64,000 bases of DNA from Synechococcus sp. CBW1002 (GTDB taxonomy: Bacteria; Cyanobacteriota; Cyanobacteriia; PCC-6307; Cyanobiaceae), in assembly GCF_015840915.1 (NCBI RefSeq), contig NZ_CP060398.1:806001-870000 (forward strand). Reading direction: 5' to 3'. The position numbers and the translations under genes are program-made. Positions 5,311-53,435 of this stretch are shown here, piece after piece. Positions within the stretch are counted from its first letter, which is position 1, and each line of letters opens with the position of its first letter. The notes below the pieces were generated by a model. The model made no database searches and was not told the origin of the DNA. It saw nothing but the letters and a program-made list of their open reading frames with translations.

Positions 5311-6070
5311 AGTCGTCGGTTGGGCCCCCAGGTGGACGGGTCAAACCGAGCGGACTTCTTTGCTGACACTGGGGGACGCGTCGCAGTTCTGCAAAGGCTT
5401 TGGGGCACCTGCCAAGCCATTTCGAATGGCATTGGGTGCCCTGATCATCAAAGCTCGCATGGCGATCACAGACGAGGAGCTGGTTGAGCAACTCAAGGAA
5501 AATCCGTACCTGCAATTCTTCATTGGATTAGAAGCGTTCCAGTTCTCAGCACCGTTCGATCCATCGATGATGGTCTATTTCCGGAAGCGCCTGCCGGAGT
5601 CAGTGATCAACGACTGCAACGAACGGATCGTGCGCCATGGGCTGAATGTGATCCAGGCCGCAGATGCCGACGATGATCAAGGTGCAGACAAAGGTGGCGG
5701 TTCTTCCACGGGGCATGGCAGCAATGATCACACGTCTATGCCATCGGCCAACCAAGGCACACTCTTGATTGACGCCACATGCGCACCGGTTGACATCCGC
5801 TATCCGACTGATTTATCTCTGCTCAATGAAGCCAGAGAAGTTACAGAAAAACTGATTGATGCGATGCATCCGCCGATCAGAGAGGCGTTTGGCCAGAAGC
5901 CACGTACGCATCGAAAGAAAGCCCGTCAGCAGTTTTTGGCAGTGGCAAAGAAGAAGCGCCCTCGCATCAGCAAGATTCGAAGAGCGATTAAGCAGCAGCT
6001 CGGCCATCTTCAACGGAATCTTGGCAGTATTGATGCCCTGATCGCTTGCGGTGCCTGAGGTGGGTGCCTT

Positions 6071-6976
6071 TTATTGGACAGTTCCGGCCCCTGACATCGT
6101 TAACCCAGGACGGGTGGAACATGGTTCGGCCTCAGTGTAGACCGCGTGGGGAGTTTTGCCTCCAAGGGAACTGTGAGGTCTTACATGGCAATACCGCCAC
6201 AGGAAGCGGGCCAGGCTGATTTCAGCGTCCCAGCCATCGCTGTATGCCCGTAGGTAGACCTCCTCGTACTTGACAGTCCTCCACAGCCGTTCAACAAGGA
6301 TGTTGTCGTAGCACCGCTTTCTGCCGGACCAGCTGATCTGGATCCGCTCCCCTTTGAGTCTGGCCACAAAGTCAGCGGACGTGAACTGACAGCCTTGATC
6401 GGAGTGGAAGATCTCTGGCCTACGGCCGCCTCCCAAGGCCATCTCCAGGGCCTCCAGACAGAACTTCGTGTCAAGGCTGTTGGAGAGCCTCCAGCTGAGC
6501 ACATGCCTGGAATGGAGATCCATGATCGCCACCAGATAGAGGAACCCTTTCTGCAGAGGGATGTAGGTGATGTCGGTCGCCCAGACCTGATCCACCGACG
6601 TGACCTGCGTGAGGTCCACCAGGCAGGGGAACCGCACGGACGGATCACCTGGAACCGTCGTCCGGGGCTTCTGGTAGATCGCCCGTAATCCCATGCGCCG
6701 CATGAGGTTTCGCACTCGATCTCGGCTGATCGGGATACCATCTTGGGCCAGATAGTCCACCATCCGGCGGCTGCCGCTGCAGGGATCCTCCAGGTAGAGA
6801 GCATCGATCCTGGCCATGATCCGCAGCGTCGATACACGGACCGGTGTCGGCCGGTAGTACAGCGTGGATCGAGGCAGCCCCAGCAGCGCACACTGCCTGC
6901 TGATGCTGAGCTCGGGGTGGTCGTGATCGACCAGCTTGCGCAGTTCACGGGCATCAGAGCAGTTGAGACTTTTTTT
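6071..6976 (-). CDS. IS-A OrfB, DDE transposase catalytic subunit (copy 2)
   Basis: An IS3-family integrase-fold transposase with catalytic residues in VWATDITYI, IFHSDQGCQF and CYDNILVERLW. There are 35 residues between the second Asp and the Glu. No good start codon or ribosome site precedes it. It joins OrfA only if one base is lost in, or skipped at, the A8 tract at 6977-6970. The fused product would read EWLKKSLNCSDARELRKLV. The gene is complete and the copy probably mobile. Confidence 0.85.
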   Translation of the reverse strand, partial: KKSLNCSDARELRKLVDHDHPELSISRQCALLGLPRSTLYYRPTPVRVSTLRIMARIDALYLEDPCSGSRRMVDYLAQDGIPISRDRVRNLMRRMGLRAIYQKPRTTVPGDPSVRFPCLVDLTQVTSVDQVWATDITYIPLQKGFLYLVAIMDLHSRHVLSWRLSNSLDTKFCLEALEMALGGGRRPEIFHSDQGCQFTSADFVARLKGERIQISWSGRKRCYDNILVERLWRTVKYEEVYLRAYSDGWDAEISLARFLWRYCHVRPHSSLGGKTPHAVYTEAEPCSTRPGLTMSGAGTVQ

Positions 6977-7241
6977 TGAGCCACTCCAGCTCCATCTGCA
7001 GCCGTCCGATCTGCTGGAACAGCTCCGCCTCCTTGGCCTGCCCCTCCTCCTTGTCCTTGGTCTTCTTGCCTCGGGTGAAGAGCTCGCTGGCACCGTCCAG
7101 GAGCTGCCGCTTCCACTGGCTCACCTGGATCGGGTGGATGGCGTGGTCGGCGGCGATCTCCTGGATCGTCTTGCGGCCACTGATCGCCTCCATGGCGACC
7201 CTGGCCTTGAACTCGGGGCTGTGGGTGCGGCGCTTGCTCAT
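6954..7241 (-). CDS. IS-A OrfA, helix-turn-helix subunit (copy 2)
   Basis: The same 95-residue protein as copy 1: helix-turn-helix followed by a leucine-zipper-like helix. It ends shortly after the A8 run. Its start is preceded by the same CCCC/GGGG hairpin. On its own it may act as an inhibitor of transposition, as OrfA proteins of IS3 elements often do. That role is family knowledge, not something seen here. Confidence 0.8.
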   Translation of the reverse strand: MSKRRTHSPEFKARVAMEAISGRKTIQEIAADHAIHPIQVSQWKRQLLDGASELFTRGKKTKDKEEGQAKEAELFQQIGRLQMELEWLKKKSQLL

Positions 7242-7594
7242 CGGTGGGAGCCCCTTTCAGGGGCGGTACCCCGCCTCAGAGGTTAACGATGGGGCCTGTC
7301 CAGAAAAGCCAGACCACCTCAGCCTGCCTTTTGGCCGCAGGAAGACACTGGTATCACAAACTCTTGGTGGTCAGCGAGCTGATTCGCCAGCAGAAGATTC
7401 TCTACCACTCAGACAGCAGAAGCATCCCCAATTGGATCGTGAGCCTCTTCCAAGCTCACATCAGGCCCATAGTTCGTGGCAAAGCCAGATGTAATGTCGA
7501 ATTCGGAGCCAAGATCTCAATTTTAGTTACGGGTGATGGATTCACCTACCTAGACCGCTTGAGCTACGACCCCTACAACGAAGGAGAAGATCTA

Positions 7595-32417: not shown

Positions 32418-32569
32418 CCCAGCCGTTTTCCGGGATCGTCTGGAACCAGCACCACCGTCACTGATGGTGAGCCACGAGCTGATGCAGCGGCCTGATGTCC
32501 CGGCCTGATGCCCTGGTCAGCGGAGACCAGGCCCCATGGGAAAATCCGCGATTCCCCAGCAACTTCACC
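32418..32569 (+). promoter_or_regulatory. Leader of the broken aspS copy 1
   Basis: The last 40 bp (CCATGGGAAAATCCGCGATTCCCC) are almost the same as the sequence before the intact aspS copy 2 (51578-51611). The two aspS 5' ends are therefore homologous beyond the coding region and share control elements. No -10/-35 pair is assigned with confidence. Confidence 0.45.
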
Positions 32570-32629
32570 ATGCGCAGCCACGGGTGCGGCGACCTGCGTG
32601 CCGACCACGCCGGCCAGGACGTGCAGCTC
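32570..32629 (+). pseudogene. aspS: First 20 codons of aspS copy 1, cut off by the IS256 nest
   Basis: [20 protein letters not shown] matches the amino end of aspS copy 2 ([20 protein letters not shown]). The match stops after the CAGCTC at 32624-32629. About 15 unrelated bases follow, then the terminal repeat of the IS256-type element. The rest of the gene resumes at about 37353. Confidence 0.85.
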
Positions 32630-33902
32630 AGCAGCGTCCCGTGGAGTGGTGTAACTCAGGAGGAGCAGTCCCGGCGTAGCCGGGACTGACGGCTCGCCTC
32701 CCTCAGTTCTCTGTTATGGCAATGGGTGGGCCGGTCTGTGACCCTGTTCGGAGCACTACCACCAAACCGAACACAGACCATGACCCTTTCCCATAGTGGC
32801 GCCTCCGAGCTGAGACAGCTCATGGAGGGCACCACCGCTGGCGCGTTGATCCCGGAGATCGTGCGTCGGGGCTTTCAGGACCTGCTGGAGGCCGAGGTTT
32901 CCGCGCTCACCGGAGCCCAACTCCACGAGCGTTGCCCCGATCAGCGCTCTACGCACCGCAACGGCTACCGCAGGCGACTGCTCACCACCCAGGTGGGCGA
33001 CCTGACCCTGGCCATCCCAAAGCTGAGGCAGGGCAGCTTCTTGCCCGACTGGCTGGCGCCCCGACGGCGGATCGACAAGGCCCTCTACGCCGTGGTGATG
33101 GAGGCCTACACCGGCGGCATCTCCACCCGCAAAGTCGACGCCCTGGTGGAGGCTCTGGGCGGCGACTTTGCGGCATCTCCAAATCGGAAGTGAGTCGCAT
33201 CTGCCAGGGCCTTGATGAGCAGGTCAAAGCCTTTCTGGGCCGGCCACTGGAGCATGCCAGCTTCCCCTACGTCTACCTCGACGCGACCTACCTTCACGGC
33301 CGTCTGGGCCGCAACATGCAGGTGGTCTCCCGGGCGGTGGTGGTGGCGATCGGGATCAATGCCCTCGGCTACCGCGAGGTACTGGGAATCGCCGTGGGCG
33401 ACAGCGAAGCCGAGGGCTTCTGGCGCCAGTTCCTGGGCTCACTCAAAGAGCGTGGCCTGACTGGCACGCGGCTGGTGATTTCGGATGCCCACCTGGGGCT
33501 GACAGCCGCGATCAAGCGCATGTTCCAGGGCAGCAGCTGGCAGCGGTGCCGAGTGCACTTCCTGCGCAACCTCCTGAGTCATGTCCCAAAGGTTGGCCAG
33601 GACATGGTGGCGGCGGCGATGAAAGCGGTGTTCGTGATCCAGAAGCCTGAGCAGGTCAGAGCCCACTGGCAGCAGGTCACCGAGATGCTGCGCAAGCAGT
33701 TCCCCGGCGCCGTGCCCGTGATGGAAGACGCCCGGGACGACGTGCTGGCCTTCCTGCACTTCCCCCAGGAGCACTGGCGCAAGATCTGGAGCACCAACCC
33801 GCTCGAGCGCCTCAACAAGGAGTGAGGTGGTCTGGCTTTTCTGGACAGGCCCCATCGTTAACCTCTGAGGCGGGGTACCGCCCCTGAAAGGGGCTCCCAC
33901 CG

Positions 33903-34190
33903 ATGAGCAAGCGCCGCGCCCACAGCCCCGAGTTCAAGGCCAGGGTCGCCATGGAGGCGATCAGTGGCCGCAAGACGATCCAGGAGATCGCCGCCGACCA
34001 CGCCATCCACCCGATCCAGGTGAGCCAGTGGAAGCGGCAGCTCCTGGACGGTGCCAGCGAGCTCTTCACCCGAGGCAAGAAGACCAAGGACAAGGAGGAG
34101 GGGCAGGCCAAGGAGGCGGAGCTGTTCCAGCAGATCGGACGGCTGCAGATGGAGCTGGAGTGGCTCAAAAAAAAGTCTCAACTGCTCTGA
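33903..34190 (+). CDS. IS-A OrfA (copy 3)
   Basis: The same 95-residue helix-turn-helix protein, with one substitution near the start (RAHSPEF instead of RTHSPEF) shared with copy 4. Copies 3 and 4 are therefore closer to each other than to copies 1 and 2. The A8 run at its end is conserved. Confidence 0.75.
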   Translation: MSKRRAHSPEFKARVAMEAISGRKTIQEIAADHAIHPIQVSQWKRQLLDGASELFTRGKKTKDKEEGQAKEAELFQQIGRLQMELEWLKKKSQLL

Positions 34191-34955
34191 TGCCCGTGAA
34201 CTGCGCAAGCTGGTCGATCACGACCACCCCGAGCTCAGCATCAGCAGGCAGTGTGCGCTGCTGGGGCTGCCTCGATCCACGCTGTACTACCGGCCGACAC
34301 CGGTCCGTGTATCGACGCTGCGGATCATGGCCAGGATCGATGCTCTCTACCTGGAGGATCCCTGCAGCGGCAGCCGCCGGATGGTGGACTATCTGGCCCA
34401 AGATGGTATCCCGATCAGCCGAGATCGAGTGCGAAACCTCATGCGGCGCATGGGATTACGGGCGATCTACCAGAAGCCCCGGACGACGGTTCCAGGTGAT
34501 CCGTCCGTGCGGTTCCCCTGCCTGGTGGACCTCACGCAGGTCACGTCGGTGGATCAGGTCTGGGCGACCGACATCACCTACATCCCTCTGCAGAAAGGGT
34601 TCCTCTATCTGGTGGCGATCATGGATCTCCATTCCAGGCATGTGCTCAGCTGGAGGCTCTCCAACAGCCTTGACACGAAGTTCTGTCTGGAGGCCCTGGA
34701 GATGGCCTTGGGAGGCGGCCGTAGGCCAGAGATCGGCGCCTATCAGCAAAGATGTCCGCTCAGGGTACTGATCTGAGTACCTCAGAAAGCCTACTCCGGA
34801 TGGAGGATCATGGGCTTCGAGATCGGATGTTGATCGTCATCGCGCGTTGATCAGGAGCGCAGGCTTGAGCGGCCGGCCCCCGGTCGGAGGCTGAGGCCGG
34901 CCCGCCTCTTGCGGGCGGTCCAACCACAACCCCCTGGGGCCTGGGTTTCTGATCT

Positions 34956-37246: not shown

Positions 37247-39133
37247 ATGGAGCTGCGCAATCAGCTCCCAAGCAGTCATCCCCTGACTGCTCCTGATCAC
37301 CCTCCTGAAAGGGTCACAGGACCTCCTGAGTTACACCACTCGCAGGGGCGCTACCTGCAGCTCTGCGGCTGGGTGGACCGGCGCCGCGATCACGGCGGCG
37401 TGATCTTCATCGACCTGCGCGACCGCAGCGGCACCGTGCAGATCACGGTGGACCCCGACCTGGGAGCCGATGCCTTCGCGGTGGCCGAGCACCTGCGCAA
37501 CGAAACCGTGATCCAGGTGGCGGGCACCGTGCGCGCCCGGCCCGGTGAATCGCTCAACGAGAAGCTGGCCACGGGCGCGGTGGAGGTGCTGGCCGCCACC
37601 ATCTCGGTGCTCAATTCCGTCAAGGGGAATCTGCCCTTCCCGGTCTCGGTGCACGACGAGGAGAACACCCGCGAGGAGCTGCGGCTGCGCCACCGCTACC
37701 TGGATCTGCGTCGCGAGCGCATGAACGGCAACCTGCGCCTGCGCGCCCAGACCATCCAGGCCGCCCGCCGTTTCCTCGAAGACCAGGGCTTCATCGAGGT
37801 GGAAACGCCGGTGCTGACCCGCTCCACCCCCGAGGGCGCCCGCGACTACCTGGTGCCCTCCCGTGTCTGCGGCGGTGAATGGTTCGCCCTGCCCCAATCG
37901 CCCCAGCTGTTCAAGCAGCTGCTGATGGTGGGCGGCATCGAGCGCTACTACCAAGTGGCCCGCTGCTTCCGCGACGAAGACCTGCGCGCCGATCGCCAGC
38001 CGGAATTCACCCAGCTGGACATGGAAATGAGCTTCATGGACCAGGAGCAGATCCTCGAGCTCAACGAATCCCTGATCGCTTCCATCTGGAAAACCGTGAA
38101 GGGCGTGGAGCTGCCCCGCCCCTTCCCGCGCCTCACCTGGCATGACGCCATGGAGCGCTACGGCACCGACCGCCCCGACACCCGCTACGGCATGGAGCTC
38201 ACCAACGTGAGCGACCTGGTGGCCGACATGGGCTTCAAGGTGTTCAGTGGCGCCGTGGCCGCCGGCGGTTCGGTGAAGTGCATTGCCGTGCCCGGCGGCA
38301 ATGACGCCGTGAGCAACGTGCGGATCAAGCCCGGCGGCGATGTGTTCAGCGAGGCCCAGAAAGCCGGTGCCGGCGGCCTGGCCTTCATCCGCGTGCGCGA
38401 GGGCGGCGAGATCGACACGATCGGCGCCATCAAAGACAACCTCTCCGAGGAGAAGAAAGCCGAGCTGCTGCAGCGCACCGGCGCCGAGCCCGGCACCCTG
38501 ATCCTGTTCGGCGCCGGCGACACCGCCACGGTGAACAAGGCCCTCGATCGGGTGCGCCAATACCTGGCCCGCGAGCTGGGCATGGTGAAGCCCGACAGCG
38601 AGAACGACAGCTGGAACTTCCTCTGGGTGGTGGATTTCCCGATGTTTGAGTTCAACGCCGACGAGAACCGCTACGAGGCGCTGCACCACCCCTTCTGCGC
38701 CCCCAACACAGACGACCTGGGCAACGACCCATCCGCCTGGGCCGACACCCTGCCGGGCGCCCGCGCCCAGGCCTACGACCTGGTGCTCAACGGCCTGGAG
38801 CTGGGCGGCGGCTCCCTGCGCATCCACGATTCCGCCCTGCAGCGCCAGGTGCTCCAAACCGTTGGCCTCCCCCTGGAGGAAGCCAATCAGCAGTTCGGCT
38901 TCCTGATGGAAGCGCTCGACATGGGCGCCCCGCCGCACGGCGGCCTGGCCTTTGGTCTTGATCGCATGGTGATGCTGCTGGCCGGTGAGGAATCCATCCG
39001 CGACACCATCGCCTTCCCCAAGACCCAGCAGGCCCGCTGCCTGATGACCGGCGCCCCCGGCGGTGTGGCCGCCAAGCAGCTCGAGGAGCTGCATGTGGCC
39101 AGCACCTGGGTGGACGAGGACGCCGAGGGATAG
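37247..39133 (+). CDS. aspS: Aspartyl-tRNA synthetase, copy 1, with IS-derived amino end
   Basis: A class II synthetase charging tRNA-Asp (the bacterial type may also charge tRNA-Asn). The anticodon-binding OB fold ([20 protein letters not shown]) and catalytic motifs [40 protein letters not shown] and [20 protein letters not shown] are intact to the stop. The first 20 native residues are missing: they sit at 32570. The open frame instead begins inside the IS256 end and adds about 34 foreign residues before [12 protein letters not shown]. Whether it is expressed or folds is unknown. An intact aspS exists at 51612, so this copy may be dispensable. Confidence 0.8.
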
Positions 39134-39299: not shown

Positions 39300-40316
39300 C
39301 TAAACGGTCCGTGACCCTCTAAGACGCGCCAGTAGGAAACAGACGAAAAGCACCGAAGCATTGCCGATCACAAAGACACCACTCGCGATGCGACGTGCGG
39401 GCGCGAAGGTGATCGACTGGGGCGCCTCAACCATCAACGCCATACGCAACGAAGGGATCCAGCGATAGGCCCCCAGGACGGGCACACCATGGGCATCCAA
39501 ATATGCACCACTGCCGGAGAAACCATCCATCGCACGAAGGATTGCGGTGCTGGACAAGGGGGGGAGCAACCTGTCTTTCCGAGGGATAGAGGGCGCAAGT
39601 CCATTGGAGCGCTCGGCGTGAACTTCGGTGATGGTGCCGAATCCCGTCTGTCCAACCAACGTGACCGAAACGTCGCCCGAGCGAGAATCTTGGCGGACGC
39701 GCCGCATTAAGACGCCTAGATCCAGACCAGCAGCGAGCACTCCCAAACGCCTTTTGGATCGACAGTCAGTGATGCGATCATCAACAGGGCCAGCGCACAA
39801 GGGCAACGCCAGAGTGATGGCAGGCAGGCCAGTCCCTCCATCTGTATATAAGTTGTAGGGCTTGGTTTCCAGCTCATGCGGATGCAAGAGCGTGGTGGTA
39901 TTCGCTAGAGGACGATAATAACCGAGCAGTCCAGGTTGGGTTGAATACACGATAATGCCACCATTGGAAAGCAATGACGTCGACACCCGCAAGGATGAGG
40001 TCGCGCGGAATGCAGCGTCCAAGGTCAACTCAGCCGGCGAGGGCGGCGCGGCACGGGAACGACGTGGGGCCGCCAGCACGTCACGACCGGCCTCAAGGAC
40101 GGTTTTGTCTCCAAGCTGCTGGCGCAGGGAACTCCGCTGATCGATCAGCCAGGCATCCACACGCCTCATCCGATCATCAGCAATAGCATCAAGATGATGC
40201 AACTCAGAACGACCAAGCCGTGCAGCGTAGAACTGATAAACAGTTAACGTTGCAATACCGACAAAGAAACATGCCCCGAGGCCAACACGTAGCAGCGATC
40301 GATCTATTGCCACCAT
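39300..40316 (-). CDS. Orphan Cache-domain membrane protein
   Basis: 338 residues: one helix near residues 8-30 (GLGACFFVGIATLTVYQFYA), then an extracytoplasmic domain of about 270 residues resembling double-Cache sensors (LGYYRPLANTTTLLHPHELE, LGVLAAGLDLGVLMRRVRQ), then a second helix (SGVFVIGNASVLFVCFLL). The protein ends only a few residues after this helix, so no output domain is present. It may be a truncated sensor or may signal through a partner such as the RsbU-type protein at the head of the operon. Its start overlaps the solute-binding gene by 13 bp. Confidence 0.65.
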   Translation of the reverse strand: MVAIDRSLLRVGLGACFFVGIATLTVYQFYAARLGRSELHHLDAIADDRMRRVDAWLIDQRSSLRQQLGDKTVLEAGRDVLAAPRRSRAAPPSPAELTLDAAFRATSSLRVSTSLLSNGGIIVYSTQPGLLGYYRPLANTTTLLHPHELETKPYNLYTDGGTGLPAITLALPLCAGPVDDRITDCRSKRRLGVLAAGLDLGVLMRRVRQDSRSGDVSVTLVGQTGFGTITEVHAERSNGLAPSIPRKDRLLPPLSSTAILRAMDGFSGSGAYLDAHGVPVLGAYRWIPSLRMALMVEAPQSITFAPARRIASGVFVIGNASVLFVCFLLARLRGSRTV

Positions 40317-41659
40317 TTTTGAAAAATCACTCCAATGGCCTTCATCGCATCATCTGCCGCTTGGGCAACAGGCAAGCGTTTCTCAGCGACGGCTTGGATT
40401 GCCTTCCCCCAGATCATTTGATTCATGACCTCGCTATAGGCAGGATTAAGGACATTCAAAGGAAGCTGCGTATGACGCAAAGATTCGCGAGCAACACGAA
40501 GATGCGGATCATCGGAGCCGGCCCAATCCGACTGATTCCACAATGACTTGAGCACAGGAAGAAAACGACCACTAGCGCCCTTCAGGAGCGTAGCAACATT
40601 TGCAGGACGGACCAAATAAGAGATGAAGCTCTCAGCCTCTCGATAACGAGGCGAATCAGCAAATATCACCACAGAATTCATCCTCGGAATAGCATTCATT
40701 GGCCTGCCACTGAGCGTCTTAGGCCAAGCTGTGCTCTTGAGACGCTTGACATACGTGAGCTCATCCGACATCTGAGAACCCGGTATTGACAACGTAGGAT
40801 TAGCGGTCATAAGAGACAAGCTGCTCAGAAAACTGATATTGTTGTCAGCATCAGACCAGTCCACTGCCTCGGGCGGCACGAATCCATCTCGGTATTGATC
40901 GGTATAGTCTGACAAAGCAGACACTACCTTTTTGTGAAGACCAAGATCATCAATCATGAGCTTCCCTGAAGCGTCGACAAGATTGGCACCATGAGCTTGG
41001 AGAAAGTACTCAAAGATCTCAGTTGTATCGTTTGCCAAGGGTGACATCGGCAACCCAATGCCGTAAACGTCAGCAAAACCACGACGCCTCAATCGCCCCT
41101 GTGCTTCGGACCACAAAGACCAGAACGCCTCCCAGTCGCCGGGAATACCAACACCCATCTGCGCTTCAGCAAGGAGATCCTCCCAATAGTGGATATTTGC
41201 AAACTGCATCGAGATTGGCATCCCGACGACAGACGACTGATTAGTTCGCTGATTCCTATAGGTGACGGAACGCAGAACGCCGGGTAAAAAGTCTGCTTCT
41301 AGGGGGTCAACAATCCGACTTTGATCGGCAAGCAAGCCCTGTCTCGCCAGCTGGGGCAGCGCCATACTGCTCAAACCATAGCCATATAAAATGTCTGGAT
41401 GAGGGCCACCTCGACCTGCAGCGATAGCTCGAGCAACGATTTCCGTCTCGTTAAAAAAGCTGAGCTTGACATCAGCACGGCTTTGTTCCTTCCAGCGATT
41501 AACAATCAGCTCGATCGCGTCCGCTTCTTCAGGGTAGTAACCCTCTGTCCACCAAATCTCAAGCGGCCTATTTGAGGAACCACCAATCATCGAAGTACGT
41601 CCACAGGCTGCAAGCAACGCAGACGTCGTACCGGTGATCAGAAAACTACGACGTTTCAT
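40304..41659 (-). CDS. Extracellular solute-binding lipoprotein (ABC sugar-binding type)
   Basis: About 451 residues from MKRRSFLITG. The lipobox LLAAC follows a twin-arginine-like KRRSF, so export as a lipoprotein is likely, perhaps by Tat. The rest looks like family-1 binding proteins for sugars or polyols: LEIWWTEGYYPEEADAIELI, GGPHPDILYGYGLSSMALPQ and PMNAIPRMNSVVIFADSPRY. No ABC permease or ATPase gene lies nearby. It may therefore act as a periplasmic sensor partner rather than for transport. An upstream start (41719) exists but adds a non-signal extension. Confidence 0.8.
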   Translation of the reverse strand: MKRRSFLITGTTSALLAACGRTSMIGGSSNRPLEIWWTEGYYPEEADAIELIVNRWKEQSRADVKLSFFNETEIVARAIAAGRGGPHPDILYGYGLSSMALPQLARQGLLADQSRIVDPLEADFLPGVLRSVTYRNQRTNQSSVVGMPISMQFANIHYWEDLLAEAQMGVGIPGDWEAFWSLWSEAQGRLRRRGFADVYGIGLPMSPLANDTTEIFEYFLQAHGANLVDASGKLMIDDLGLHKKVVSALSDYTDQYRDGFVPPEAVDWSDADNNISFLSSLSLMTANPTLSIPGSQMSDELTYVKRLKSTAWPKTLSGRPMNAIPRMNSVVIFADSPRYREAESFISYLVRPANVATLLKGASGRFLPVLKSLWNQSDWAGSDDPHLRVARESLRHTQLPLNVLNPAYSEVMNQMIWGKAIQAVAEKRLPVAQAADDAMKAIGVIFQKWWQ

Positions 41660-41750
41660 CAATGGGGGAGCCGTGTGAAAGAAATGTACGGAACGTGCAG
41701 CATGGCTGGCTGCTTGCATGAAGCAATTATCACGAGTCTGAGCGGACTTG

Positions 41751-42752
41751 TCACCATGTAGTCAGAACCGACACCCACACGGGGAGCAGGAGCATGAGCA
41801 GCAATGTACTCAGAGCCAAGGCTGCTACAACTCGATCACGGGTGAGTCCATAGCGCTCAGCCAAGACGAGAGTGGCGAAGCCACAGGGCATAGAGGCCTG
41901 TAAAACGAGCACAAGGCGAGGAGGTCCTTCAACACCAACGCAGGTCAGAGCTGCAGCAACAACCACAGGCACAAAAATCATTTTGATGGCAACAGGTTGG
42001 ATTGCCAGCCGCAGATGACTGAATCTAACGAGTTGCTGAAGGCGCATCCCCATAACAACAAGGCACAACATGATTGAAGACCATGCCAGGCCACTCAGGA
42101 CTTGAGAAAATAGTTGATTGAATTCGACCGTCTTCAATCCCAAGCCAAGGACAAAAGCGAATAGACTCGGATTAGTCAAGAGTTCACGCGTCGCAGTTCG
42201 CAAACGCTGCTCTCTTGTAAGGTCCGCTTTGGAGTCCCAGCTCGCGATCAACAAACCGAGACCATACGAGGCGAAGAATGTCCCCAACACATCATACAGC
42301 ACCGCCCAGCTAAAATATGCTTCGCCAAGCTGAGGCAAAAGCAAAACAATCGGTATACCAAGATAGCTCGTATTACCAAGATAACTGAGCAAGAGAAATG
42401 AAGCTCGATCCTTCTGGTCACGCACCCGTTGCGTGACAGTCAACACAAGAACAGCCACTGAGATTGCCAACCCCATTGCGCACCATGCGACAATGGGAGC
42501 CAATAGAATCTCGAGAGAGAAGCCAGCACTTCTAACAAAGTTAACGATACATATCGGTATTCCGATATGGAAAAGATACCTTCCAAATGCATTGGCCAGG
42601 CTCCGCTGCGGGGTGGATGAACGGTGCCAGTTGGAGGGCAGAAAACGAGAAGATGCACCAATACCAGCACTCAGCAGAACACCAATCAGAATCGCAGAAA
42701 AGATTGGTAGATAGACAGAATGCAGGAGTTGAAGCAGAAAGTGAATGCTCAT
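41751..42752 (-). CDS. AEC-family permease (auxin-efflux-carrier type)
   Basis: A 333-residue membrane protein with about ten helices in two halves. Family features include SYLGNTSYLGIPIVLLLPQL and PPRLVLVLQASMPCGFATLV with the Asn/Pro/Gly-rich kinks of the crossover. Bacterial AEC members often carry malate, malonate or other organic acids. The link with a LarA-like enzyme suggests a 2-hydroxyacid, but this is inference. It overlaps the LarA-like gene by 4 bp. Confidence 0.85.
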   Translation of the reverse strand: MSIHFLLQLLHSVYLPIFSAILIGVLLSAGIGASSRFLPSNWHRSSTPQRSLANAFGRYLFHIGIPICIVNFVRSAGFSLEILLAPIVAWCAMGLAISVAVLVLTVTQRVRDQKDRASFLLLSYLGNTSYLGIPIVLLLPQLGEAYFSWAVLYDVLGTFFASYGLGLLIASWDSKADLTREQRLRTATRELLTNPSLFAFVLGLGLKTVEFNQLFSQVLSGLAWSSIMLCLVVMGMRLQQLVRFSHLRLAIQPVAIKMIFVPVVVAAALTCVGVEGPPRLVLVLQASMPCGFATLVLAERYGLTRDRVVAALALSTLLLMLLLPVWVSVLTTW

Positions 42753-44563
42753 GAAAGAGGCTCTAGGAGAATGGGATTCTGAATAAACCCGCAGAAACCT
42801 TTCCTGGCGTGACCACGCAACAGTTGATGAGCCGTATAGCAGCTTTGAAGAGCCTGGGAGGGAGACTGCTGGCGTAGATCAACCCCTGAGACTCCCAGCA
42901 AATCAAGCCTGAAAGGAGGATCTGGAGGCAACTCCTCAAACCAGGCAGGAGACTTCAAACAACGCAAATCGGGACTAAGCATTTCGATATAGGCGATAAC
43001 CGCTGGATTGTCTGTAGCGATCACAAAACGCTCGAACCGCTGAAGAATCAATAAAAAACGAAGAGCCCGCTGTCCTCCTTCCGCGAACGCATATGCCGAC
43101 AAAGACCCCCTCCAATCAGATGCTTCATGCTGCACAGCGGACCAATTCGCTGCCATACAATGAGCCATGAGCGAACGAATACGACGCCCCAAAATCCCTG
43201 GAATATCCTTATAGCGATTTAGTCGCATGTACATTTTCTTCTGCACCTCGATGCATTGATTATTGGCAGTCCCGAGTGACTGAACATGCTGAGCTAGCTT
43301 GCTGAGGGACAGGAGAAAGTCGTCTTGAATACTCATTAGCCGAAGATAACAATACCAACGTGTAAGTACGCGATTTCTCGACTGTTTCATCAATCGTGCT
43401 GTGCAACCTGGTTGCTTGGTCAGTAGCATGAGCTCCGCCTGAATACACTCAGCCAAAACATCGAGATGTCGCTTGGTACCACGATTTCCAATACCATCTG
43501 CATTGGCGACTTCATGGCAAGTGTTGAACAAGAATGCGGTGCGCAGAGGAGAAGACCGGCTTAAGACAGGATGTCTAGGATGATCAGCGGCACACAGCAA
43601 ATGAAGACTACGGCAACCTGCGAGTAAATCAGTCGACTTGCTGATTTCTGGATCTGAGATGACAAAATCCAGGGGCTTACCAACTCGGCATGTACGCTCT
43701 TGATGGAGTTGAGATGTAAGCACAACGCGCTCAGCATCCTTTTCTCCAATCCAAACACCATGTACAGCAGAATCTGAAGGCTCCAGACAGACAACCGAGA
43801 AGCCAAGAGGTGGCACACCCAAGTGAGAAGACAGGAGAGCCTGTATAATGGCCTTAGCGTAATAGTCAAGCAGTTGAACAAATCGACTATCTATCAATCG
43901 CCTCTTGACTGCTGAATCCGTTAACACATGGATATCATGCGTATGATGAATAATAGATTGATTGCCCAATCCAATCACTAGCATTTTATGAAGTCCACCA
44001 CTACCGCTTCGCGACTCGTAAGGATGAAGCTCAGTATTTCCTGCAACGACAATGAGATGGCTCTCCCATAGGACAGAGGGCAGATCTAATCGCAACGTTC
44101 CCGGACCGATCCACGCGGGCTTTGCAACATTCAAGGATCTTGAAGGAAGTGGCTGCAATGTGGTCTGCTCAAGGATCGGAATCGAACGCTGTTGCAACGC
44201 AAGCAAGCGATCGACGCCGAGCAGATTGCCAATACGTTCTAGGCCCATTGGCGGATGACTACCAAGGCCAAATACCACAGTCAACGATAGATCGGGTCGG
44301 CTATCGACAAGAGCAAGCAGAGTGTCGATAGCCAGATGGGAAGCCTCAGATCTACGCGTGTGATCAGGCAAAACAAGAAGGACTCGCTTTTCTCCTGCCT
44401 TTAGCGAAGACAGTCGTACCGATAGTGCGTGGCGTAAGCGCTTCCTGATCTGCAGAGGATGAACTTCTTCTCGTTCACCCGCTCGAGGAAGCAAGAGTTC
44501 CGAATCGCGAGGCAAATCAACCGAATAGGCCGGGAAACTTTGCAGCGATACCGGGATACTCAT
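42749..44563 (-). CDS. LarA-like protein (lactate racemase / nickel-pincer superfamily)
   Basis: 604 residues, longer than LarA (about 425). Motifs of LarA are in order: LPDHTRRS (Asp67, Arg70), FGLGSHPPM (His103), GNTELHPYESRSGSGGLHKM (His180, Lys193) and IIHHTHDIHV (His209). The spacings Asp to His (36) and Lys to last His (16) are the same as I recall for LarA, where Lys184 holds the nickel-pincer nucleotide. A carboxy-terminal region of about 200 residues has no known domain. It probably isomerises a 2-hydroxyacid, but the substrate is unknown, and larB, larC and larE are not in the window. It overlaps genes on both sides by 4 bp. Confidence 0.7.
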   Translation of the reverse strand: MSIPVSLQSFPAYSVDLPRDSELLLPRAGEREEVHPLQIRKRLRHALSVRLSSLKAGEKRVLLVLPDHTRRSEASHLAIDTLLALVDSRPDLSLTVVFGLGSHPPMGLERIGNLLGVDRLLALQQRSIPILEQTTLQPLPSRSLNVAKPAWIGPGTLRLDLPSVLWESHLIVVAGNTELHPYESRSGSGGLHKMLVIGLGNQSIIHHTHDIHVLTDSAVKRRLIDSRFVQLLDYYAKAIIQALLSSHLGVPPLGFSVVCLEPSDSAVHGVWIGEKDAERVVLTSQLHQERTCRVGKPLDFVISDPEISKSTDLLAGCRSLHLLCAADHPRHPVLSRSSPLRTAFLFNTCHEVANADGIGNRGTKRHLDVLAECIQAELMLLTKQPGCTARLMKQSRNRVLTRWYCYLRLMSIQDDFLLSLSKLAQHVQSLGTANNQCIEVQKKMYMRLNRYKDIPGILGRRIRSLMAHCMAANWSAVQHEASDWRGSLSAYAFAEGGQRALRFLLILQRFERFVIATDNPAVIAYIEMLSPDLRCLKSPAWFEELPPDPPFRLDLLGVSGVDLRQQSPSQALQSCYTAHQLLRGHARKGFCGFIQNPILLEPLS

Positions 44564-46623
44564 CTCAACACTCGTGGTTTCGTGAATCGCATGACCATCA
44601 GCGTCATATCATCGAACTGATCGGCATCGTTAATATGTTCGGACACATTTGTCTTGATCTCCGAAGCGATTTGATCGGCCGTTAAGGAATCAGACATTGC
44701 CAGCAGCATCGATTCGAGCCGATCCATTCCAAATGGATCGCCAGAGGGCGAGCGCGCATCAATGATGCCGTCTGAAAAAATAACGAGCACATCACCCGGA
44801 TCGAGCTGAACATCTCGTAGCTCATACGTTGCGCCCTGGAAGAGGCCCATCGCTGGACCTTTGGCATCCAGCCTTAAACAATGATCACCCTTCCTGAGCA
44901 AGGGGGTTTCATGACCAGCAGATACATAGCGAAGCCGGCCAGTGTCTGACGCGAAACATGCCAAGAACATCGTGGCAAACATGAAGGTTTCACCATGGTT
45001 CTTCGCCATATAGTTATTGACCAGTGAAACAACCTCAGAAAGCGGCGTGTTCGAGGGGCCATGAATTGACTCTTGACTCAGCCCATAACGAACCAGTGTC
45101 CTAAAGACACTCATGAACAAGGCTGATGCAACTCCTTTGTCGCAAACATCCGCGACTGCAAGATAGCAAAGATCATCAATCGCCAGAGCATCGAACCAAT
45201 CAGCACCAATCTCATAAGCAGGGAGAAAATAAGCTGACAGCTCTACGCCCTCAACGACCGGAAGAGACTCAACAATAAAGCTTTTTTGAATCGTCTTAGC
45301 TGTCTCTAGCTGTTGATCAGTGACAGCATGAGCCAATGCCTGCTCCAGCAGTTTTTGAAGCTGACCGCCTGTTTGGTTAATACTGGAGTAGAGCTCGCCA
45401 AGCTCGCCTGGATAAACCTCATCGAGGTGGGCATTAAAGTCTCCTGTACTGATGGCTTTGATCGCCTTGCCAGCATCCTTAATGGGACGCGAGACTCGCC
45501 CGCAGGCAAAAGAAATCGCTAGGGCTGTCACAATAACTGTGACAAGCTGAGCGATAATAAGATTTCTCAGGTTGCGCATGACAGGCGCGAGTATCGTTTC
45601 ACGATCGACCACAGTTACGCTCAGCCATTCCGACGAGACTGGCAGCACTAACATATAGAAGGGTATTCCATGAACTTCAACAAGGCGAAATTTATCCTGG
45701 CCAAGAGATTCTTTCGCCAGCTTGACAAATGGCGCCCAGGAGCTACTCGCCACTCGCTGTGGAGACAAAAGCGAAAGATGGCTATATCTTGCGCCTGAAT
45801 TCACAGGGAACACAAGATTCCCGCTCTTATTGAGCAAGAAGAATGAGTGCCCTCGGTATTTGCCGACATGTGGCTCAATGGAACCAACAGGTGTGCCGGC
45901 TTGTGTCAGCTCGGATTCAGACCCAACCAATAAAAGCCCAGAATCTTCACCCAGCTTCGACAGCGGAATACAGAATGAAAGAATGCCCTGAACCAAAGCA
46001 TCATCGTTTAGACCATAAACAGGCTGATTAGCCTGAAGGCAAGCATCGAGGCGTCCGTTCGATTGCACTGATGAAACTTTAAAATTGAAGCGCCCAGCGC
46101 GAGCATCCCGGAAACCTGGATCCTGAAGAATGCGCTTTTGTTGTAGCGGAATATTGATGACCTGCTCTGAGGCCGAGACAAGCGATCCATCAGCCTCCCA
46201 TAGTCGCCAGTTCCTCAAGGGGGTTAGCGGGTAGATCGGAGACAGGATCCGTGAAGCCTGCTGCTGATTCATTGAACGAATCGCAGGCGATAGGCTTAGG
46301 GAGCGAAGCATCAGACCCACATCTTTTTCCCATGCATGGAAAAATCGATCTAGTGTTTTCGCACGCCGCATCTGATTGGCTTGCTGCTCTGCGACCATAC
46401 GATCAGCAGCAAAAACAAACAATATGGTGTTCCCAATACCAAAACAGATCACCATTGGGACAACCACACGGGTTGTCAAGCGAAAATTCAGACTATTGAC
46501 AATGGCTTTGGCACGACCCTGTAAACCCCGACAGCGCATGAGAAGCCGCGAATAGATCATGACAAGAAATATGGGCGCCTCGAAAAATCCCAATTCCTCG
46601 TGGATGAGCCGAGTGAGACTCAT
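44560..46623 (-). CDS. Transmembrane sensor with HAMP and RsbU/SpoIIE-type PP2C phosphatase
   Basis: 687 residues. The first helix is VVPMVICFGIGNTILFVFAA, followed by a large extracytoplasmic Cache-like domain, a second helix (LIIAQLVTVIVTALAISFA), HAMP (SRPIKDAGKAIKAISTGDF) and a PP2C phosphatase. The metal-binding residues lie in EIGADWFDAL, VADVCDKGVASALFM, LVIFSDGIIDARS and FDDMTLMVM. Such enzymes dephosphorylate an anti-sigma-factor antagonist, but none is encoded here. It leads the operon and overlaps the LarA-like gene by 4 bp. It probably senses the transported or bound compound. Confidence 0.85.
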   Translation of the reverse strand: MSLTRLIHEELGFFEAPIFLVMIYSRLLMRCRGLQGRAKAIVNSLNFRLTTRVVVPMVICFGIGNTILFVFAADRMVAEQQANQMRRAKTLDRFFHAWEKDVGLMLRSLSLSPAIRSMNQQQASRILSPIYPLTPLRNWRLWEADGSLVSASEQVINIPLQQKRILQDPGFRDARAGRFNFKVSSVQSNGRLDACLQANQPVYGLNDDALVQGILSFCIPLSKLGEDSGLLLVGSESELTQAGTPVGSIEPHVGKYRGHSFFLLNKSGNLVFPVNSGARYSHLSLLSPQRVASSSWAPFVKLAKESLGQDKFRLVEVHGIPFYMLVLPVSSEWLSVTVVDRETILAPVMRNLRNLIIAQLVTVIVTALAISFACGRVSRPIKDAGKAIKAISTGDFNAHLDEVYPGELGELYSSINQTGGQLQKLLEQALAHAVTDQQLETAKTIQKSFIVESLPVVEGVELSAYFLPAYEIGADWFDALAIDDLCYLAVADVCDKGVASALFMSVFRTLVRYGLSQESIHGPSNTPLSEVVSLVNNYMAKNHGETFMFATMFLACFASDTGRLRYVSAGHETPLLRKGDHCLRLDAKGPAMGLFQGATYELRDVQLDPGDVLVIFSDGIIDARSPSGDPFGMDRLESMLLAMSDSLTADQIASEIKTNVSEHINDADQFDDMTLMVMRFTKPRVLR

Positions 46624-47297
46624 TTCACAGCCTGAGTCATCCCGGCCTGGAAGTCCCGGAGAGGACGATTTTTCGAGGTGCCCATATATGAATGCTTGAC
46701 GCGAAGAGCTTGCCTTCCAATCCTAAGGCACTCTCAGAAAAATGCCACACCTCAAGGGAGTATTAGAAACTCCCAGCTCAATATCGACAAGAGAAAGCTG
46801 GACCACGCATTGACTTGATCCACATGCGGCAGGCATACCGATTGCTCTTTCCTTTCAATGCACCAGATACAGGTCGACAAAATATCAAGCTGTAACAGAT
46901 GCTGGCAACCGTGATTTAGCAAACAAGGCAAGGCAAAGAATCGGCATGCTGCTATCGCTAGCTACTCTCTGGGCTTATTGGACAGTCATGGCCTAGGTTG
47001 CCAGAAGTAACCTGCAAAAGAGGGCCGATGCCTAAAAGCTATTCCGATTAGTTAACAGCAAATCTCTAGGGCTTGTTGCTCGAAAAGTGCGGCCTGACCC
47101 GCGATCACCTGCACACCATAAGGTCCAATCCAAAACAGCTCTCCGCACCAGTCCATCGACACTAATTCACGCAAAACCCATGACTAGTCGACTTTTTCTT
47201 GGCAGCTATGGCCACTTACGGAGACCGGCATTGACCGACAAAGCGATGCAGGCGCAGTGATTAACTTGACGATTAGGACTTCCAGGTGATCCCAGCA
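46624..47297. other. Upstream region of the LarA-like operon, non-coding
   Basis: About 670 bp at lower GC without a supported gene. It should hold the operon promoter. No clear -10/-35 pair, operator repeat or RNA structure can be assigned by eye. Confidence 0.4.
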
Positions 47298-47558
47298 AAA
47301 CAACCTCTAAGAGGAGAACAAGGCCGAGCTAACAATCCCCCTTGGCACCCCTAAGGCAGGCGGGCTCGTGAACGACCCGGCCGCCTGGACCGACACCGTG
47401 CCCACCACCTGCGCCCAAGGCCTACGACCTGCACCTGGAGGAATCCAACCAGCAGTTCGTCTTCCTGATCGAAGCGCTCAACATGGGCGGACGGCGAGCA
47501 GAGCCTTGAGCACAGTGGTCTCAACCGCATGGTGATGCCGATGGCGGGCAAAAACCAA
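47298..47558 (+). pseudogene. aspS: Third, decayed aspS remnant
   Basis: Nucleotide-level similarity to aspS copy 1: AACCTCTAAGAGGAGAACAA resembles 38439-38458, and GAACGACCCGGCCGCCTGG resembles 38724-38741. GAGGAATCCAACCAGCAGTT resembles 38877-38896, and CAACCGCATGGTGATGC resembles 38959-38975. Large internal deletions and frameshifts separate the blocks. It is oriented like the other aspS copies. Confidence 0.75.
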
Positions 47559-47691
47559 GGGGGCTGATCCCCAAACGAGCGTGCAATCCCGAACAGAAAC
47601 GTGGGATTTGAGGGTGGATCTCAATTGAGACTGGATTGTTGGGGGGCTGTTCCAGGCCAAGCCTGTGCCCAAGGGCTGAGGTGGGTGCCTT

Positions 47692-48597
47692 TTATTGGAC
47701 AGTTCCGGCCCCTGACATCGTTAACCCAGGACGGGTGGAACATGGTTCGGCCTCAGTGTAGACCGCGTGGGGAGTTTTGCCTCCAAGGGAACTGTGAGGT
47801 CTTACATGGCAATACCGCCACAGGAAGCGGGCCAGGCTGATTTCAGCGTCCCAGCCATCGCTGTATGCCCGTAGGTAGACCTCCTCGTACTTGACAGTCC
47901 TCCACAGCCGTTCAACAAGGATGTTGTCGTAGCACCGCTTTCTGCCGGACCAGCTGATCTGGATCCGCTCCCCTTTGAGTCTGGCCACAAAGTCAGCGGA
48001 CGTGAACTGACAGCCTTGATCGGAGTGGAAGATCTCTGGCCTACGGCCGCCTCCCAAGGCCATCTCCAGGGCCTCCAGACAGAACTTCGTGTCAAGGCTG
48101 TTGGAGAGCCTCCAGCTGAGCACATGCCTGGAATGGAGATCCATGATCGCCACCAGATAGAGGAACCCTTTCTGCAGAGGGATGTAGGTGATGTCGGTCG
48201 CCCAGACCTGATCCACCGACGTGACCTGCGTGAGGTCCACCAGGCAGGGGAACCGCACGGACGGATCACCTGGAACCGTCGTCCGGGGCTTCTGGTAGAT
48301 CGCCCGTAATCCCATGCGCCGCATGAGGTTTCGCACTCGATCTCGGCTGATCGGGATACCATCTTGGGCCAGATAGTCCACCATCCGGCGGCTGCCGCTG
48401 CAGGGATCCTCCAGGTAGAGAGCATCGATCCTGGCCATGATCCGCAGCGTCGATACACGGACCGGTGTCGGCCGGTAGTACAGCGTGGATCGAGGCAGCC
48501 CCAGCAGCGCACACTGCCTGCTGATGCTGAGCTCGGGGTGGTCGTGATCGACCAGCTTGCGCAGTTCACGGGCATCAGAGCAGTTGAGACTTTTTTT
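47692..48597 (-). CDS. IS-A OrfB, DDE transposase (copy 4)
   Basis: A complete catalytic subunit, the same protein as copy 2, entered by a shift at the A8 run (48598-48591). All three catalytic acids are present. With both ends and both genes intact, this element should be mobile. Confidence 0.85.
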   Translation of the reverse strand, partial: KKSLNCSDARELRKLVDHDHPELSISRQCALLGLPRSTLYYRPTPVRVSTLRIMARIDALYLEDPCSGSRRMVDYLAQDGIPISRDRVRNLMRRMGLRAIYQKPRTTVPGDPSVRFPCLVDLTQVTSVDQVWATDITYIPLQKGFLYLVAIMDLHSRHVLSWRLSNSLDTKFCLEALEMALGGGRRPEIFHSDQGCQFTSADFVARLKGERIQISWSGRKRCYDNILVERLWRTVKYEEVYLRAYSDGWDAEISLARFLWRYCHVRPHSSLGGKTPHAVYTEAEPCSTRPGLTMSGAGTVQ

Positions 48598-48862
48598 TGA
48601 GCCACTCCAGCTCCATCTGCAGCCGTCCGATCTGCTGGAACAGCTCCGCCTCCTTGGCCTGCCCCTCCTCCTTGTCCTTGGTCTTCTTGCCTCGGGTGAA
48701 GAGCTCGCTGGCACCGTCCAGGAGCTGCCGCTTCCACTGGCTCACCTGGATCGGGTGGATGGCGTGGTCGGCGGCGATCTCCTGGATCGTCTTGCGGCCA
48801 CTGATCGCCTCCATGGCGACCCTGGCCTTGAACTCGGGGCTGTGGGCGCGGCGCTTGCTCAT
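48575..48862 (-). CDS. IS-A OrfA (copy 4)
   Basis: A 95-residue helix-turn-helix subunit with the RAHSPEF variant shared with copy 3. The CCCC/GGGG hairpin precedes the start. Confidence 0.8.
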   Translation of the reverse strand: MSKRRAHSPEFKARVAMEAISGRKTIQEIAADHAIHPIQVSQWKRQLLDGASELFTRGKKTKDKEEGQAKEAELFQQIGRLQMELEWLKKKSQLL

Positions 48863-48945
48863 CGGTGGGAGCCCCTTTCAGGGGCGGTACCCCGCCTCAG
48901 AGGTTAACGATGGGGCCTGTCCAGAAAAGCCAGACCACCTCAGGC

Positions 48946-49364: not shown

Positions 49365-50111
49365 TCAGTTCACAGTCACCAGGCCGGTCGCCAGATCGAA
49401 ATAGGCGCTACGGATCGTCAGAGCGCCGGAGGCTTGCGCCTGCTTGAGCACCGCACTGCGGGCAGGTAGCAAGCCGGCGGCGTAGCGGGCATTGCCCTGC
49501 ACCGCCTGGCTGAGGCTGTCGCCGCTCACGAGGCTGGCCCGGATCGGCTTGACCAGACCTTCCAGCAGCGGCGTGAGCGGATCGCTGCCCATGGCGGCCT
49601 TGACAGCACCGCAGTTGCTGTGGCCCAGCACCACGATCAGCGGCACCTTGAGAACACTCACGGCATATTCCATCGAGGCAACGGCGTCATCAAAGGCGGT
49701 GTTGCCGGCGCAGCGCACCTGGAACAGCTCCCCGGAACCCGAAGCGAAAACGAACTCTGGCGCCACACGGGCATCGGCGCAACTCAGAAGGGCAGCCCAG
49801 GGGCGCTGGCCCTCGTTGAGCGCCTGTGGGTTGATCTGACAGCCGCCGTAGAAGAATTCGGTTTTGAGCTTCAATCGCTTAACAGGGTCGCTCTCGCGGC
49901 TCATTGCCTGCCAGGCCCTGCTGAAGCCACGGTTGCGCTCCAGAAGCGCTTCCAGGGGGTCTCCGGGAGGGTCACAGACCTGCAGTTCCCCGAGCAGGGC
50001 CTGACTTTCAGGTTGAGCCGCTGTGGCAGGGCCCTGGGCGAACCGACTCAGCGCCATTGCTCCTGCTGCTGTTCCAGAAAGCTGCAACAGGCTGCGGCGA
50101 GATAAAGCCAT
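49365..50111 (-). CDS. Beta-class carbonic anhydrase with Tat signal peptide
   Basis: Interconverts CO2 and bicarbonate. Zinc ligands are the Cys in SCADARVAPE and His and Cys in VLGHSNCGAV, with Asp-Arg of the ADAR dyad. The amino end MALSRRSLLQLSGTAAGAMA has a twin-arginine motif and hydrophobic core, so the enzyme is exported to the periplasm folded with its zinc. It has about 248 residues from 50111; the frame extends upstream to 50177. A periplasmic enzyme would act outside the carboxysome, in CO2 supply or leak recovery. Confidence 0.88.
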   Translation of the reverse strand: MALSRRSLLQLSGTAAGAMALSRFAQGPATAAQPESQALLGELQVCDPPGDPLEALLERNRGFSRAWQAMSRESDPVKRLKLKTEFFYGGCQINPQALNEGQRPWAALLSCADARVAPEFVFASGSGELFQVRCAGNTAFDDAVASMEYAVSVLKVPLIVVLGHSNCGAVKAAMGSDPLTPLLEGLVKPIRASLVSGDSLSQAVQGNARYAAGLLPARSAVLKQAQASGALTIRSAYFDLATGLVTVN

Positions 50112-50287
50112 GGTGAAACGGGAGCCTGCGTGCACGGCGACGAAACTCCCCGGAACCCTATGAGAAGCGCTGAGCATGCTCGGCTATCGCTGAATGAATT
50201 CCAAATCGTGCGCCCCTCTGCTGGGCCCCTGCCCGCCGCGACGGTGGAGCGCAGGGGCGCGCGACAGCCGCGGAGGCTATTCCGACA

Positions 50288-51529: not shown

Positions 51530-51611
51530 TATTCCGACAGGTCTGCACCGATCCAGGGGAGGCCAACACGGGGTTCCATGGGAAAATCCCCGATTCCCCA
51601 GCGAATTCACC

Positions 51612-53435
<1,824 letters not shown>

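Follow-up and report, generated by a model that had tools for sequence, protein, structure and literature searches.

What might a cyanobacterium do with a LarA-like protein whose gene lies among genes for a permease, a binding lipoprotein and two sensor proteins? The question is raised by a five-gene cassette in the 64,000-nucleotide stretch analyzed here (the window), which is part of a complete cyanobacterial genome of 3.85 Mb. It touches on a published puzzle, namely that cyanobacteria make the nickel-pincer nucleotide (NPN) without having LarA (PMC11796402), with which the genome counts reported below are consistent.

The original prediction, made from the letters of the DNA, had placed five genes on one strand in a segment lower in GC than its flanks, and both points were borne out. 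The segment is filled by five long ORFs on the minus strand (Table 1), transcribed in the order SpoIIE-type phosphatase/HAMP, Lar_N protein, AEC permease, solute-binding lipoprotein and dCache-type protein, and its GC content is 47-53% across most of the cassette compared with ~59-70% in the surroundings. The genes had also been described as mostly overlapping by 4-13 bp. This holds at three junctions (4 bp for phosphatase/LarA-like, 4 bp for LarA-like/AEC and 13 bp for lipoprotein/Cache) but not at the fourth: the start of the lipoprotein gene is best set at 41659 (MKRRSFLITGTTSALLAAC), where several relatives begin and which is followed by an RR motif and a lipobox (a twin-arginine-like lipoprotein signal), so that a gap of ~91 bp separates it from the AEC gene.

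Table 1. Genes and subfeatures of the cassette in window coordinates
Feature	Position	Strand	Evidence
RsbU/SpoIIE-type phosphatase, 687 aa	44560..46623	-	Pfam SpoIIE 7.6e-43, HAMP 3.8e-08
LarA-like protein, 604 aa	42749..44563	-	Lar_N 2.8e-09; AF2 model; invariant key residues
Helical insertion of the LarA-like protein, approximate, residues ~361-500	43064..43483	-	model secondary structure; ~410/604 residues align to LarA
AEC (auxin efflux carrier family) permease, 333 aa	41751..42752	-	Mem_trans 2.4e-21; TIGR00946 5.1e-28, under its cut-off
Solute-binding lipoprotein, oligosaccharide-type fold	40304..41659 (ORF as first called 40304-41719)	-	relatives match SBP_bac_8 6.6e-24 and SBP_bac_1; profile match YcjN 6.5e-14
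dCache-type extracytoplasmic sensor protein without output domain, 338 aa	39300..40316	-	relatives match dCache_1 3.5e-08

A divergent LarA-type fold and its predicted cofactor site

The AlphaFold model of the LarA-like protein, built with 11 sequences (pLDDT 85, pTM 0.86), has the two-domain fold of LarA according to both VIA and Foldseek. Compared with solved LarA structures it gave VIA Z scores of 25.5 (9eia) and 24.6 (5huq) over 407-412 residues, with an rmsd of 2.9 over 412 residues for 5huq, and Foldseek E values of 1e-10 to 6.5e-13 for all LarA entries. The strong structural matches were LarA-family entries only, the next unrelated rows having Z scores below 7.

Six residues of the window protein, D67, R70, H103, H180, K193 and H209, correspond to D72, R75, H108, H174, K184 and H200 of LarA, whose roles have been described (PMC11770544, PMC7583248). 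The counterparts of the NPN-binding residues (D72, R75, K184 and H200) also line up with Mar2 and a canonical LarA homologue. All six are invariant in all copies (11/11 aligned), among them the lysine and the histidines on whose retention in homologues the original prediction had leaned. Since the homologues are ~30-36% identical to the window protein and only ~13% of positions are invariant, full conservation of the key residues is unlikely to have arisen by chance.

The claim that these residues keep LarA spacing stood in part: the R75-H108 (33) and K184-H200 (16) spacings are preserved, but the H174-K184 spacing is 13, against 10 in LarA, and that of H108-H174 varies. One profile alignment puts an invariant arginine, R318, at the site of LarA K298 and A315 at that of Q295, both of which contact the substrate in LarA. 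With these two apparent replacements and the wider H174-K184 spacing, the chemistry may differ from that of LarA. The 200-residue extension announced by the original prediction took another form in the structure prediction: there are ~190 residues more than in LarA, mainly in one helical insertion inside the C-terminal domain and not in a tail.

None of the named NCBIfam LarA subfamilies (LAR, MAR, LarAH10, hexonate, 14/15/16) was reached, with best scores of 28-45 bits against cut-offs of 400-740. The LarA-type fold and the invariant key residues, combined with scores this far under the subfamily cut-offs, place the protein, as far as sequence and model can tell, in a divergent LarA-fold group with a full predicted NPN site. 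With the LarA superfamily (LarA 5huq, Mar2 6d6z, Isosphaera LarA 9eia) it shares the fold over its whole length, the six residue equivalents and the presence of cofactor genes in the genome. In addition to the differences in insertion, spacing, subfamily score and probable Arg for K298, the cassette proteins are 604-777 aa long, have a variable loop and are encoded next to AEC, SBP and sensor genes rather than lar genes.

The cofactor genes larB, larC and larE, on which the original prediction depended, were all found elsewhere in the window genome. LarC, however, was present in 15/15 and LarB in 9/9 cyanobacteria tested, with or without a cassette; we therefore downgraded their presence as support for the LarA-like assignment and treat it as weak, non-discriminating evidence.

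Distribution and inheritance of the cassette

Homologues were found by protein search in 5/399 genomes of the order and 6/386 of the phylum (window included), and Lar_N proteins in 9/292 genomes of the phylum. A profile found the LarA-like family in 8/377 genomes (~2%), counting one relic and one canonical LarA. The 11 loci from the profile scan were all cyanobacterial, in a scan that used only two peptide patterns and thus documents presence in this phylum rather than absence outside it. A single-protein scan of genome contigs and a plasmid search gave no match.

The order LarA-like, AEC, SBP, Cache recurs in Synechococcus lacustris (L021), UW140-type Synechococcus (L022, L024), the genome G452 (L025), Synechocystis salina (L026/L037), two further Synechocystis species (L027, L057), Microcystis (L029/L041) and a Leptolyngbyaceae MAG (L038). 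Of the five-gene order sought in other genomes, four genes are therefore found in the same arrangement, and the fifth, the signalling gene, is present in altered form; it varies between carriers and is absent in S. lacustris. The pairwise distance matrices of the four proteins correlate at 0.93-0.97, LarA-AEC being the tightest pair. In all four gene trees the window groups with the two freshwater Synechococcus, and the three Synechocystis that carry the cassette stay together; the deeper branches differ somewhat. Shared order in distant cyanobacteria and largely agreeing trees make the four-gene cassette a real unit.

The unit is not always complete. One Synechocystis (L028) has only the LarA-like and AEC genes side by side, with SBP and Cache not adjacent, and two Leptolyngbyaceae (L039, L040) have the LarA-like gene without adjacent AEC, SBP or Cache, which suggests that some family members function with no sensing genes linked to them. 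In the genome G713 (L080, 8420-13324) the AEC gene is lost and only a 33-residue remnant of the LarA-like gene is left, next to an IS-type gene; SBP and Cache remain. The S. lacustris cassette (L021, 4496-16019) is flanked by ureF and ureG-type genes, which belong to urease, a nickel enzyme. In a 9.4 Mb cyanobacterium (G719; L081, 6961-8217), a glucuronate isomerase and a LacI-like regulator adjoin a canonical LarA homologue, which was rejected as a member of the cassette family: it belongs to a different group and is another kind of NPN enzyme.

In the window, the segment with the cassette has been inserted at aspS. The sister genome G273 has the order MFS, aspS, dps-type, pyrG without a cassette, and relatives have a single aspS. 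The window has two full-length copies, at 37247-39133 and ~51550-53435 (91.1% and 92.4% identical to the aspS of the sister), and between them lie the cassette, an aspS relic (47292-47545), an IS3-type element and a beta-carbonic anhydrase gene. The suggestion that the cassette had moved in as a unit agrees with this comparison; that it sits between two aspS relics does not, the first of these being a full-length gene.

Several further features of this region were observed. In aspS copy 1, the first 36 codons (37247-37354) are an interspersed repeat with five more copies in the genome at 95-100% identity; the reading start of this aspS copy falls in foreign sequence. In addition, ~100 bp of the aspS start region recur at ~32535-32635, which looks as though an IS cluster had separated copy 1 from its own start. 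Near-identical copies of the IS3-type element occupy 47676-48943, 6055-7322 and 33823-34734. The beta-carbonic anhydrase gene (49365-50177), on the inserted segment between the cassette and aspS copy 2, encodes a signal-like N-terminus.

The low GC, the IS copies around the cassette and its insertion relative to the sister genome could also be read as signs that unrelated genes were joined by chance through transfer on an IS-rich island. This reading is contradicted by the recurrence of the same order in several families of distant cyanobacteria, with trees that largely agree, and we regard it as hardly credible.

Exchangeable signalling genes and the icfG cluster

The window phosphatase consists of a membrane sensor domain (~40-360), a HAMP domain (376-423) and a SpoIIE phosphatase domain (487-680), and its sequence contains the Asp motifs for metal binding, ADVCDKG, FSDG and FDD. 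The window genome contains three HATPase_c_2 genes of RsbW-type kinases over the cut-off, none of them in the cassette. In UW140-type Synechococcus the place of the phosphatase is taken by a class III adenylate/guanylate cyclase; over 393 residues, its sensor half and that of the window phosphatase share 33% identity. The Microcystis cassette includes a dCache histidine kinase, with a sensor homologous to the cassette Cache protein, as well as a response regulator-SpoIIE protein, and in G452 a gene for a double cNMP-binding protein is directly upstream.

In three Synechocystis genomes (L026, L027, L057) the cassette lies directly behind genes for an IcfG-like phosphatase and an anti-sigma kinase of 143-151 aa, with glgX and two antagonists upstream, which is the gene order of the icfG cluster. 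The signalling output is thus swappable (phosphatase, cyclase, histidine kinase, IcfG plus anti-sigma kinase) beside constant metabolic genes. The window resembles the icfG (slr1860-slr1861) cluster in that a membrane SpoIIE phosphatase adjoins the cassette; it differs in having no slr1861-type anti-sigma kinase, antagonists or glgX beside it, and the sensor halves of the two phosphatases are not alike by BLAST. In PCC 6803, SigC and the responses to carbon and glucose are under the control of icfG cluster products (PMC12329169). No mention of a LarA-like gene was found in the published icfG work searched.

Just after the cassette in L027 there is a TrpD-like gene. Combined with the numbering of PCC 6803, which we take to be slr1860 for icfG, slr1861 for the kinase and slr1867 for trpD, this gene order suggests that the cassette genes of PCC 6803 are probably slr1862-slr1865, with slr1862 as the LarA-like gene. 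In the literature slr1865 appears as a hypothetical gene with homologues in other Synechocystis strains; no mention of slr1862 or slr1863 was found in the literature searched.

LarB, LarC and LarE of Synechocystis make active NPN, and a 2024 paper considered the NPN user of this genus likely to be a protein of non-LarA fold (PMC11796402). A LarA-fold candidate is encoded in 4/5 of the Synechocystis genomes examined here, in three of them directly behind icfG. On sequence and model evidence, the family is a candidate LarA-fold NPN client for Synechocystis and the other carriers. We rejected it as the NPN user of all cyanobacteria because, present in only 8/377 genomes, it leaves ~98% unexplained.

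Proposed function and alternatives

The lipoprotein had been called a binding protein without ABC partners, and indeed no ABC permease or ATPase gene is adjacent to it in the window or in any other SBP-bearing locus. Its model matches oligosaccharide-binding proteins with VIA Z scores of 26-29; with a mean pLDDT of 68, these fold matches were used only together with the sequence evidence. By profile and fold (model confidence being modest) its nearest solved relatives are oligosaccharide-binding proteins, and it has the fold and Pfam family of the family 1 members YcjN, Lin1841/5ysd and SmoF. It differs from them in lacking the adjacent ABC genes and in having as partner a carrier of another class. 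Mem_trans covers most of this permease, as in AEC carriers of the MleP/MdcF type (TIGR00946), although it scores under the TIGR00946 cut-off. AEC carriers are known for organic acids. No description of an AEC carrier paired with a LarA-like enzyme was found in the literature searched.

We propose that the genes form a cassette, patchy in its distribution, for sensing and using a sugar-derived 2-hydroxyacid, a reading to which we give about an even chance. The LarA-like protein would be loaded with NPN from housekeeping LarB, LarE and LarC and would invert a 2-hydroxyacid at C2 through proton-coupled hydride transfer, with H103 and H180 as predicted acid-base residues, K193 as the cofactor tether and H209 as the nickel ligand. 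Passage of this acid, or of its epimer, through the inner membrane would fall to the AEC protein. The sugar-binding-type lipoprotein and the dCache protein may together act as a periplasmic receptor feeding a membrane sensor with interchangeable output; in the window, the SpoIIE phosphatase would act on the partner-switching (anti-sigma antagonist) proteins of the cell. Our best guess for the substrate, the weakest step of the proposal, is a sugar acid or another 2-hydroxyacid, as a sugar-derived 2-hydroxyacid fits both the oligosaccharide-type binding protein and the organic-acid carrier.

The direction of transport assumed here could be the reverse, since AEC proteins may export. The permease might then release a 2-hydroxyacid epimerized by the LarA-like enzyme, in overflow or exchange, while the sensors read its outside level as feedback on carbon metabolism. 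The AEC family does include exporters, the LarA-AEC pair is the tightest of the cassette and persists alone in L028, and the Synechocystis copies sit with carbon-status regulators. A binding lipoprotein, however, usually marks uptake or sensing of scarce solutes, and no biosynthetic gene is linked, and we consider export unlikely. Less probable still is a purely regulatory role, in which the LarA-like protein binds the cofactor or a hydroxyacid without turnover and signals through its helical insertion to the AEC or partner-switching proteins. The large family-specific insertion, the apparent replacement of K298 by R and of Q295 by A, and the frequent presence of signalling genes alongside would suit such a role; it accounts poorly for cofactor and acid-base residues that are all invariant in proteins ~30% identical, and for the enzyme being kept without any partner in L039 and L040.

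Within the sense-and-use proposal, a more specific version can be put forward tentatively, as somewhat likelier to be wrong than right: the proteins would form a LarA subfamily not recognized before and would serve as the client that uses NPN in Synechocystis (in PCC 6803 probably slr1862). They would be built into the icfG carbon-status switch, with a sugar-acid substrate sensed outside the cell by the binding protein and by dCache receptors that signal to sigma-factor partner switching or cAMP.

For the cassette family, the comparison means that the metabolic genes were retained as the sensor output changed between phosphatase, cyclase and histidine kinase. Nearly all cyanobacteria can make a nickel cofactor whose user has long been missing, and the comparison also provides a concrete LarA-fold candidate for this role. 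As a LarA-fold protein with all the predicted cofactor residues is encoded behind icfG in Synechocystis species, the question of the NPN client becomes directly testable in a laboratory strain, for which co-expression tools are already available, and if the proposal is true, the icfG carbon switch would gain a possible ligand and a metabolic partner.
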